DNA from: Spirochaetales bacterium
GTDB taxonomy: Bacteria; Spirochaetota; Spirochaetia; DSM-2461
Length of the DNA stretch: 64,000 bases
Assembly: GCA_003247135.1 (NCBI GenBank)
Contig: QKAW01000038.1
Coordinates: forward strand, 62,001 to 126,000
Direction: 5' to 3'
How positions within the stretch are numbered: the first letter of the stretch is position 1; every line of letters starts with the position of its first letter. Shown piece by piece: positions 59,236 through 62,051 of this stretch. Under the pieces are notes generated by a model. That model was given only the letters and a program-made list of their open reading frames with translations, was not told the origin of the DNA and did not search any database. Made by a program: the position numbers and the translations under genes.

Positions 59236-59757
59236 TTATTTTTCCTCTTTTCTGATTATTTTACTTGCAACAAGGAAGAGAATTCTTCCTCCAACAAGTC
59301 CACCAAAAAGTTGAATTGTGTTTGTTGGAAAAACTTCTCCGATAGCCATTTCAAGTCCACCTATTTCCTTTAAAAAGAAAGCTTCCCCAATAAAATATGT
59401 TGCAACCATTAATATTCCACCTGATAAAAGAATTAACAGATGAATTAATCCCTTCTTTTTATAAGAAATATAGGCCATGGATGCCTCTAAGCCCTTGGCA
59501 ATAAGTGTAATTGGAGCAAAAACACCATATCCTAGGAACATATCTGCACTAGCTGCACCTAGACCGGCAACAAGAAACGCAATAAGTATCTCACTGCTTT
59601 TACTCTTGCCAAAAAAGTAAGCAATAAATAATCCTGAGAATACTACTGCTACATCACTGAAATTAAAAAAACCGACACCAACAGGAACAGTTATAAAAAC
59701 TGTAGTTAGAGTTACTGTGGCATATAATACCAGCAGTGTTATTAGTCTTTTTGTCAT
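59236..59757 (-). CDS. ECF transporter substrate-binding (S) component
   Basis: The 173-residue protein has five or six membrane helices and the pattern of the PF07155/ECF-ribofla_trS-type S proteins: VGFFNFSDVAVVFSGLFIAY, GLGAASADMFLGYGVFAP and ITLIAKGLEASMAY. S components bind vitamins or their precursors and topple in the membrane during transport. The substrate is not readable from sequence. GGGGAG precedes the ATG, which overlaps the T-component stop by one base. Confidence 0.8.
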   Translation of the reverse strand: MTKRLITLLVLYATVTLTTVFITVPVGVGFFNFSDVAVVFSGLFIAYFFGKSKSSEILIAFLVAGLGAASADMFLGYGVFAPITLIAKGLEASMAYISYKKKGLIHLLILLSGGILMVATYFIGEAFFLKEIGGLEMAIGEVFPTNTIQLFGGLVGGRILFLVASKIIRKEEK

Positions 59758-60386
59758 TAAAAACTCCCCTTTATTTTATTTTCTCTATCAATTAAAAGTT
59801 CATACTTATTGTCAAAATTTCTATATATTCCAAAGAATAGGGATAATGGAACTGCCAGGTAGTGTAATATTTTCCCTAACCCTTTATTTGTTAAATTATC
59901 AGGGTGAAACTCATAATAAATTCTGAGCCTCTCCATAACTTCTATTCCTGAAATCATTAATATATATAAAATTTTACTTTGTCTATTGTTTTTACAAACT
60001 AGAATAAGATCAATTAAATTTATTTTGGATAACATAATGTTAACAAAGGCGAATATGTTGGGAATAATAAATACTCTTAGTAAAATTGATTCCCAACGCT
60101 GTTGATAAAACTGGTTTGCAAAGTTCCAACTGTTGCTCAATCCTTTATACAGGTAAAATATTGTATGAAGAAGAACAATTACAATAAACAGAAATTTTGT
60201 AAAATTTAGAAAAAGGTATAACTGCTCCCTGTTTTGTGTAATGTAGTAAATCAGAAAAAGTGAAAAAACTGAGATCTGATAAACAATACTACCTCTTAAC
60301 ATGGAAGCTGTTAAATAAATAAATGTAAATATAAAAATTAAAGTTATGATGAACTTGATTCTGGCTTTAGTTATCATGGATAACAA
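59757..60386 (-). CDS. ECF transporter T component, divergent
   Basis: The 209-residue protein has five or so membrane helices and an amphipathic region (VMERLRIYYEFHPDNLTNKG) at the place of the EcfT coupling helices. The usual A-R-G motifs are not visible. It is shorter than most EcfT proteins (about 250-270). The TTG at 60386 with AGGAGGT 5 nt upstream is the start; an in-frame ATG at 60377 is too far from the ribosome-binding site. It overlaps the Walker-half ATPase by 20 nt. The call rests mainly on position between ATPase and S genes. Confidence 0.6.
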   Translation of the reverse strand: MLSMITKARIKFIITLIFIFTFIYLTASMLRGSIVYQISVFSLFLIYYITQNREQLYLFLNFTKFLFIVIVLLHTIFYLYKGLSNSWNFANQFYQQRWESILLRVFIIPNIFAFVNIMLSKINLIDLILVCKNNRQSKILYILMISGIEVMERLRIYYEFHPDNLTNKGLGKILHYLAVPLSLFFGIYRNFDNKYELLIDRENKIKGSF

Positions 60387-60969
60387 CTTCTACCTCCTGA
60401 TTACACTTTTTCAAATAAATTGTTCTAGCATTATCAATTTCAAGTATGTGAGAAATTATATAAACACTCTTATTATTAAACTGATTAATTAATTCGAGAA
60501 ATACATCACTACTTTTAAAGTATTTATCAGCTTCATCAAATATAACAACATCTACAATATCCCTGTATTTTTTACACTCATTTATAATAAATTCGCTTTT
60601 TGCACAGTTATCCGGTTTAAGTGTTTTTTCTTCATTAAAATCAAGAACTGTTTTCTCATGGCTGTCATCATTCAAAAAAATAGTTTTAAAGAATGAACCA
60701 CTTTTTTTTAAACCAAGAACAAACTCTTTTACCAGGAATATTAAGTTAAAGGATAGAATTTGATTCTCAATATCCTGACCAAAATAGAGGGTTTTTATGT
60801 TGTTAGCTTTAAGTTCTTTAAGTAAAATACCTTCAATAAATCTTGTTTTACCAACCCCATTGTCCCCTTTTATCAGGGAAATGGAATGAGAAGAAACATC
60901 AAGGGTTTTATCAAATTTATAAATAATATTGGCTGTCTGGTCAGAGTATTTCAGTTTATCTAATAACAT
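60367..60969 (-). CDS. ECF ATPase half with Walker A/B but no LSGGQ signature
   Basis: The 200-residue ABC-type protein has Walker A SLIKGDNGVGKTRFIEG, Q-loop YFGQDIENQILSFNL, Walker B VVIFDEADKYF and H-loop YIISHIL. Between the Q-loop and Walker B, where LSGGQ should stand, the sequence reads LKPDNCAKSEFIINE: no signature. Alone it could bind ATP but not complete the opposite site of an ABC dimer. Its start overlaps the 3' end of the signature-half gene by 14 nt, and the T-component gene follows with a 20-nt overlap. The two half-proteins are therefore made together. Confidence 0.8.
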   Translation of the reverse strand: MLLDKLKYSDQTANIIYKFDKTLDVSSHSISLIKGDNGVGKTRFIEGILLKELKANNIKTLYFGQDIENQILSFNLIFLVKEFVLGLKKSGSFFKTIFLNDDSHEKTVLDFNEEKTLKPDNCAKSEFIINECKKYRDIVDVVIFDEADKYFKSSDVFLELINQFNNKSVYIISHILEIDNARTIYLKKCNQEVEVVIHDN

Positions 60970-61300
60970 CTATTCCTCTTTCTGAAAGATATTCTGTCAA
61001 AAGTTGGTATTTTTGAGATGTTAAAGACTCTTTAATATTATCTATCTGAATTTCTGCTTTTGGGATGTTTTTTTTCTTTATAATGTGACATAGGGTAACA
61101 AGGAAAGCTAGAGATCTCTGCCCCCCGCTTAAATGGTTAATATCCTTATTTATTTCAATATCCATTTCAAATATATTATTCATCTCTTTAAGAATATTTT
61201 TTTCAGTTTCCTGGAAATCAAAAATATCATTTAGAATGAGTTCATCCTTTATCCTGTTAGATATAAATTCATGTCCATAATCTATTTTTAATCTGAGCAT
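60956..61300 (-). CDS. ECF ATPase half with LSGGQ signature but no P-loop
   Basis: The 114-residue protein starts at the Q-loop end of an ECF ATPase: DYGHEFISNRIKDELIL matches the 'QDPEHQF..NTV.DE+.FG' region with the Q-loop Gln replaced. It carries the signature INHLSGGQRSLAFLVTLC and a degraded Walker B (AEIQIDNIKESL, catalytic Glu replaced by Asn). It ends at VIR, before the H-loop. No Walker A region exists upstream in any frame back to the nudC promoter. The ATG at 61300 follows AAGGGAGA; a longer start at 61336 is less likely. It complements the Walker-half protein. Confidence 0.75.
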   Translation of the reverse strand: MLRLKIDYGHEFISNRIKDELILNDIFDFQETEKNILKEMNNIFEMDIEINKDINHLSGGQRSLAFLVTLCHIIKKKNIPKAEIQIDNIKESLTSQKYQLLTEYLSERGIDVIR

Positions 61301-61394: not shown

Positions 61395-62051
61395 ATGAAA
61401 TTTAATGGAAATAGTGTAAAAATTAGCTCCCTGGGGAGTTCAGTAAAAGATAAACTTGAATTTGTTGATTCTGATTATATTCAGATAAAAGATTTAATGA
61501 ATATTTTAGATAAAGATGAGATGGACAATCTTTTATTGGACTATCAGAAATATTCCTGGGACAGAAGATCTACATTCTGTGGTGTTTGTGGTAGTAAAAC
61601 AGAGTATGACGAGAAGGAAAACTGTAAAATCTGCCCATCCTGTAAGGAAAGATTTTATCCGGCTCAATTTCCTGCAGTAATTGTTGCAATATTTAAGGAT
61701 GATGAAATTCTTCTGGCTCATAATGTAAATTTCCCTGATAAACTATACTCCATAATTGCAGGGTTTGTTGATCTTGGAGAGAGTCTTGAAGATGCTGTAA
61801 GAAGAGAGATTAAAGAGGAAGTAGGATTGAATGTAAAGAATATTAAATATTTTTCAAGTCAGAATTGGGGTTTTACATCATCTCTTATGCTAGGTTTTAC
61901 AGCAGAATATGAGTCTGGAGATATTGTTATTGATCAGGTTGAAATTGCTAAGGCAGCATGGTTTAAATGTGATAACCTTCCAGAACTTCCACCAAAAATA
62001 AGCATTGCCAGAAAACTTATTGATAGTTTTATTGAAAAAAACAGGAAGTAG
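61395..62051 (+). CDS. nudC: NAD(+)/NADH diphosphatase, Nudix family
   Basis: The 218-residue protein has the NudC layout: a Cys4 zinc ribbon (FCGVCGSKTEYDEKENCKIC then PSCKERFYP), a Nudix box GFVDLGESLEDAVRREIKEE ... V, and SQNWGFTSSLMLGF, close to the NudC-specific SQPWPFPxS motif but with two changes (N for P, G for P). It cleaves NADH to NMNH and AMP and may remove NAD caps from RNA. The N-terminal NudC domain is short. It is divergent from the ECF operon. Confidence 0.85.
   Translation: MKFNGNSVKISSLGSSVKDKLEFVDSDYIQIKDLMNILDKDEMDNLLLDYQKYSWDRRSTFCGVCGSKTEYDEKENCKICPSCKERFYPAQFPAVIVAIFKDDEILLAHNVNFPDKLYSIIAGFVDLGESLEDAVRREIKEEVGLNVKNIKYFSSQNWGFTSSLMLGFTAEYESGDIVIDQVEIAKAAWFKCDNLPELPPKISIARKLIDSFIEKNRK

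Follow-up and report, generated by a model that had tools for sequence, protein, structure and literature searches.

A long-running question about ABC motors is whether they need two bound ATPs, and what purpose a degenerate site serves. The ATP of an ECF motor is held by one NBD and contacted by LSGGQ of its partner; as the dimer closes, it bends the coupling helices of the T protein, anchored in grooves on the two NBDs (PMC10368641). The operon described here, found in a 64,000-nucleotide stretch of DNA from a Spirochaetales bacterium (hereafter the window), raises this question because only one of its two ATPase proteins has a P-loop. We consider it probable that the operon encodes a reduced ECF-type (ABC) nutrient importer, from which the degenerate ATP site has been removed and in which one composite site is left. 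With slightly better than even confidence, we also regard it as a functional importer motor of ABC type that has only one nucleotide-binding site, the partner NBD having been reduced to a signature module without a P-loop as the decay of an already degenerate site ran to completion. The heterodimer, a cycle that uses one ATP, the EcfT role of the T protein, the substrate and transport itself are all things that we infer from sequence.

The operon, its two ATPase proteins and their conservation

The four genes overlap on the minus strand, in the order signature, walker, T and S (Table 1). Inspection of the ORFs confirmed the coordinates and frames of the original prediction, as well as its overlaps of 14 nt (signature/walker) and 20 nt (walker/T); T and S share 1 nt. 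A second species of the genus (G001) carries all four genes in identical order, with overlaps of 11, 20 and 4 nt, and in both species a NudC-like gene is divergently transcribed from the operon, across a gap of 94 bp in the window and 71 bp in G001. Such a neighbour could point to a substrate connected with pyridine or flavin nucleotides. No riboswitch was found upstream of the operon. The window genome has FlaA genes (PF04620), of which 14 control genomes have none, in keeping with a spirochaete host.

Table 1. Genes of the reduced operon, motifs of its ATPase proteins and the neighbouring gene (positions in the window)
Feature	Position	Strand	Basis or comparison
Signature subunit (putative EcfA1 remnant), 114 aa	61300..60956	-	ORF; 50% identical in G001
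LSGGQ signature motif, residues 57-61	61132..61118	-	sequence; identical in G001
Walker subunit (EcfA2), 200 aa	60969..60367	-	ORF; 52% identical in G001
Walker A GDNGVGKT, residues 35-42	60867..60844	-	sequence; G[D/E]NGVGK[T/S] across both species
Q-loop glutamine Q65, in FGQDIENQI	60775..60777	-	invariant, both species
Region expected to hold the signature (LDFNEEKTLKPDNCAKSEFIIN), without LSGGQ, poorly conserved	60580..60645	-	two-species comparison
Walker B VVIFDE, residues 141-146	60549..60532	-	invariant, both species
H-loop (switch) histidine H174, in SH	60448..60450	-	invariant, both species
Putative EcfT-like membrane subunit, 209 aa, TTG start	60386..59757	-	57% identical in G001
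ECF S component, PF07155 family, 173 aa	59757..59236	-	Pfam; 78% identical in G001
NudC-like NADH pyrophosphatase gene	61395-62051	+	divergent from operon

The signature protein has a Q-loop-like start, followed by a helical region, LSGGQRS, a vestigial Walker B strand (IQIDN) and a D-loop, and it contains neither a P-loop core nor an H-loop, its C-terminus falling before the latter. The helical region, LSGGQ, the degraded Walker B, the lack of a P-loop and the end before the H-loop had been predicted from the window, and the protein is conserved in G001, where LSGGQRS and its surroundings are kept. A sequencing error or the simple frameshift of one standard gene, the latter already discounted in the original prediction, is ruled out by the same layout in G001 and by the absence of an upstream P-loop. 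Only 15 open codons precede the signature ATG in frame, and in both species a P-loop pattern is absent from every minus-strand frame upstream of the signature gene, which also rules out a hidden P-loop exon; the 94-bp gap to NudC likewise means that no P-loop is concealed there.

By profile comparison, the signature protein is best described as a fragment of an ABC domain that begins near the Q-loop and ends with the strand preceding the H-loop. In hhalign it scored 40.8 against NBD1 of the fused EcfA proteins described below (E 5e-6) and 40.6 against ordinary EcfA (E 8e-6), scores that none of 60 shuffles retaining LSGGQ reached in either comparison, and 16.3 against NBD2. Beyond LSGGQ the similarity extends over the Walker B strand and the D-loop, which keep the expected spacing (D-N-x3-S-L). 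A model made by AlphaFold without an alignment (pLDDT 52) has an order of predicted strands and helices that fits an ABC domain. An HMM search with the single sequence was not significant, scoring no higher than LSGGQ-keeping shuffles, and Pfam and NCBIfam gave no ABC domain above cut-off, the best weak Pfam match being SMC_N (E 0.005).

The walker protein has Walker A, Q-loop, Walker B (which continues as VVIFDEAD) and H-loop and is missing LSGGQ, as predicted, and the same is true of its counterpart in G001. The original description of an ATPase divided into two incomplete proteins, though right in its essentials, holds for the 114-aa fragment but not for the 200-aa protein. To judge from its motif spacing, the latter is no half but an NBD that is nearly complete and has a degenerate signature, since the roughly 80 residues from the Q-loop Gln to the Walker B Asp resemble the spacing of a full NBD2 in the relatives (76 in L057). 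The walker protein is, on the profile evidence, specifically related to NBD2 of fused EcfA: its hhalign score against that domain is 72.5 (E 7e-11), reached by none of 60 shuffles that keep Walker A, compared with 49.1 against ordinary EcfA and 36.1 against NBD1, each equalled by one of the 60. When the P-loop was masked, it still scored above all 300 shuffles, against NBD2 only, and a global alignment to NBD2 covers its whole length (E 9e-12).

As was predicted, the pair could in principle build a complete ABC site, but only one; the complementary motifs are kept in two species. At the retained composite site, 20 of 22 residues are identical between the species, compared with 159 of 314 overall (Fisher p 7e-5), while the positions of the lost site have 3-5 of 13 identical (retained versus lost site, p 8e-5 to 0.002). 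Both ATPase genes are under purifying selection, with dN/dS of about 0.14-0.17, close to the values for T (0.19) and NudC (0.10) (NG86; all are rough, dS being saturated).

Profile searches were run with the walker protein over 393 genomes of the phylum, with the signature and T proteins over 296 genomes and with the S protein over 395 genomes of the class. Neither these nor further contig scans found the reduced operon beyond the window genome (G000) and G001, so that the proposed HMM survey of spirochaete genomes shows the pair conserved, with its retained-site motifs, in G001 only besides the window genome. It is absent from G002, of the same genus, an assembly that is 81% complete and is without NudC too. 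A weak walker match in another genome (L134 of G290) proved to be an ordinary ABC ATPase with LSGG, beside a metal-type permease and a binding protein, and the weak matches to the signature profile were other ABC-like proteins. Judged by its sequence and distribution, the reduced operon appears to be a variant of ECF transporters, conserved at the level of the genus, that has lost the second ATP site.

Fused relatives in the class and the proposed origin of the pair

The S-component search uncovered distant relatives within the same class, in which S mostly lies in an operon with T and one fused protein of two ABC domains, in the gene order NBD1-NBD2-T-S. We read 20 of these fused EcfA proteins (from L054-L067 and L116-L125; the motifs of L061, L120 and L124 were read directly from the sequences). 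All 20 carry [LT]SGG[EQ] as the signature of NBD1, and in 19 the switch histidine of that domain is replaced (by TSK, SSK, ASK, ASR or AEK), L118 being the only one with a His. NBD2 is the mirror image: full P-loop, acidic Walker B (DEAD, DELD, DEGD or DEPD) and His are present in every one of the 20, and its signature is degenerate in every one (MSYGARKR, LSFGARKR, MSYPLRKA and similar). The first Gly of the NBD1 P-loop is replaced by Ala in six proteins of family f9 and in L054 and L055 (APFN.GK, APPESGK); in one fused family this P-loop reads APFN.GK[ST]. By these motifs, the fused relatives have one consensus site (NBD2 Walker plus NBD1 signature) and one degenerate site, and such a lopsided fused EcfA is an obvious candidate for the precursor state of the reduced pair. 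Within the family, the fused operon is present in another genus (g4) and rearranged in a further one (g5). No synteny was seen between reduced and fused operons; in G011 the S locus and NudC are on separate contigs, and in G005 the two are far apart.

The ancestor would have had an operon of a fused EcfA (NBD1-NBD2), T and S. Its NBD1 would have supplied LSGGQ, with the switch histidine gone, and its NBD2 Walker A, Walker B and the histidine, with LSGGQ gone; given these losses, only one composite ATP site would have been catalytic. In the present genus the useless site may then have been removed, NBD1 shrinking to 114 aa that keep the helical and signature region and have lost the nucleotide-binding core, and NBD2 remaining a near-complete ATPase while losing the last trace of its signature. 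We place the origin of the signature protein in NBD1, rather than in another EcfA, because the operon order matches NBD1-NBD2-T-S, the scores against NBD1 and ordinary EcfA being equal.

In the resulting motor, the small and large proteins would pair head to tail, so that LSGGQ of the small one closes over a single ATP on the large one, and no second ATP could be bound in a P-loop. The signature protein would offer both LSGGQ and a helical surface for T, whose long helices would dock on the surfaces of both NBDs and relay the closure of the dimer to S.

Alternative explanations and known systems

Since the two proteins have complementary motifs and are translationally coupled, one may also consider that they are a single NBD split into two chains, with the signature protein completing the walker protein in cis and two such units dimerising to give two ordinary ATP sites. 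We regard such an A2B2 arrangement as unlikely, because the walker protein keeps the full helical segment of about 80 residues and can be aligned with NBD2 from end to end, because the signature protein would contribute a second, redundant Walker B strand and D-loop, and because the signature gene occupies the place of NBD1, the other half of the heterodimer. Alternatively, S (and T) could be powered by a housekeeping ECF motor encoded elsewhere, with the odd ATPase pair having a regulatory or other role. Group II ECF transporters share motors, and ordinary EcfA and EcfT genes do exist elsewhere in the same genus (L069-L072); against this, the coupling of the ATPase genes to T and S is found in each of the two species, and the relatives of S have a dedicated fused EcfA and T of their own, so that we find this explanation quite unlikely.

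Large motif losses, restriction to one genus and absence from G002 (incomplete as that assembly is, and missing NudC as well) are what one might expect of pseudogenes in a decaying operon left from a lost transporter. This reading is very improbable, given that all four overlapping frames are intact in both species, with ATPase proteins only about 50% identical, that dN/dS is about 0.15 and that catalytic residues are preferentially conserved. Finally, the signature protein might be an unrelated small protein bearing LSGGQRS by chance, leaving the walker protein to act alone or as a homodimer, a view to which the weak SMC_N match and the lack of a Pfam or NCBIfam ABC domain above cut-off lend something. 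We give it hardly any credence, as LSGGQRS is conserved together with its surroundings, the ABC profile similarity exceeds that of 60 of 60 shuffles and spans the Walker B strand and D-loop at the right spacing, and the predicted order of strands and helices fits.

Taken as a reduced importer with one composite site, the system can be compared with several known ones. It shares with the fused EcfA-T-S operons of the class (n=20) the S family, the gene order and the division of labour between an NBD1 signature and the Walker A/B and His of NBD2; there, however, EcfA is one chain with a P-loop in both domains, whereas here the two domains are represented by separate proteins, of which the one standing in for NBD1 lacks the nucleotide-binding core. 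Group I/II ECF transporters, such as Lactobacillus ECF-FolT2 (PMC10368641), have two NBD-derived subunits, T and S, with ATP and LSGGQ meeting in trans, an arrangement that our pair would share together with its putative T; in contrast to our pair, they have nucleotides in both full-length NBDs and X-Arg-X anchor motifs in T. The ABC exporters TM287/288, TAP, CFTR, MRP1 and Pdr5 resemble it in having one catalytic and one dead composite site (here judged from sequence), but their dead site retains a P-loop domain and ATP, unlike this putative importer, which has no second P-loop.

In Pdr5 the whole composite site is deviant, with LNVEQ in place of LSGGQ (PMC8421411, PMC7756269), which makes it a precedent for an entirely dead composite site, albeit one where ATP is still kept (PMC8421411). 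A dead site is usually held to persist because the ATP bound there serves as glue (PMC7756269). In the present pair, the whole nucleotide-binding core of the dead site has seemingly been deleted and the signature surface kept, with relatives that show intermediate stages. In agreement with the original prediction, the searches made in openly available literature turned up no importer of ECF or ABC type in which the NBD partner lacks a P-loop. If functional, the pair would mean that an ECF importer can run on one ATP and one P-loop domain; it would also provide a minimal natural system in which to test a single ATP site without engineered mutants.

The T and S proteins

The S component is assigned by Pfam (PF07155, E 1e-10, above cut-off), and in hhalign the S protein of the window matches those of the fused operons with E 3e-19. 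The T protein is harder to place: it has no match to PF02361, belongs to no recognisable Pfam or NCBIfam family and gave no significant similarity to EcfT in profile comparison. A PDB sequence search returned nothing significant, and Foldseek with the low-confidence models of the T and signature proteins gave no matches at E below 0.001. Against an EcfT profile, the T protein of the window ranked 2-3 among 600 shuffles, while that of G001 did not rank high. Its AlphaFold model, made from the single sequence without an alignment (pLDDT 57), has four long helices followed by two more. Position, size and this predicted helix layout fit EcfT, and we treat the protein as a putative EcfT.

The two-species alignment bore out the predicted lack of A-R-G motifs in T, in which the Arg residues of EVMERL and GIYR are invariant; the TTG start is also common to both species. 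The missing A-R-G motifs, together with the change in the NBDs, suggest that T has co-evolved with a changed docking surface.

Two further observations concern the fused operons. In family f9 (L117, L118, L120, L123, L124; L104/L115) the S gene adjoins guaA, encoding GMP synthase, a neighbour that may point to a substrate of this S family related to purines or derived from nucleotides. In one genome (G288, L055 635-1819, minus strand), T and S are themselves fused in a single open frame of 394 aa.
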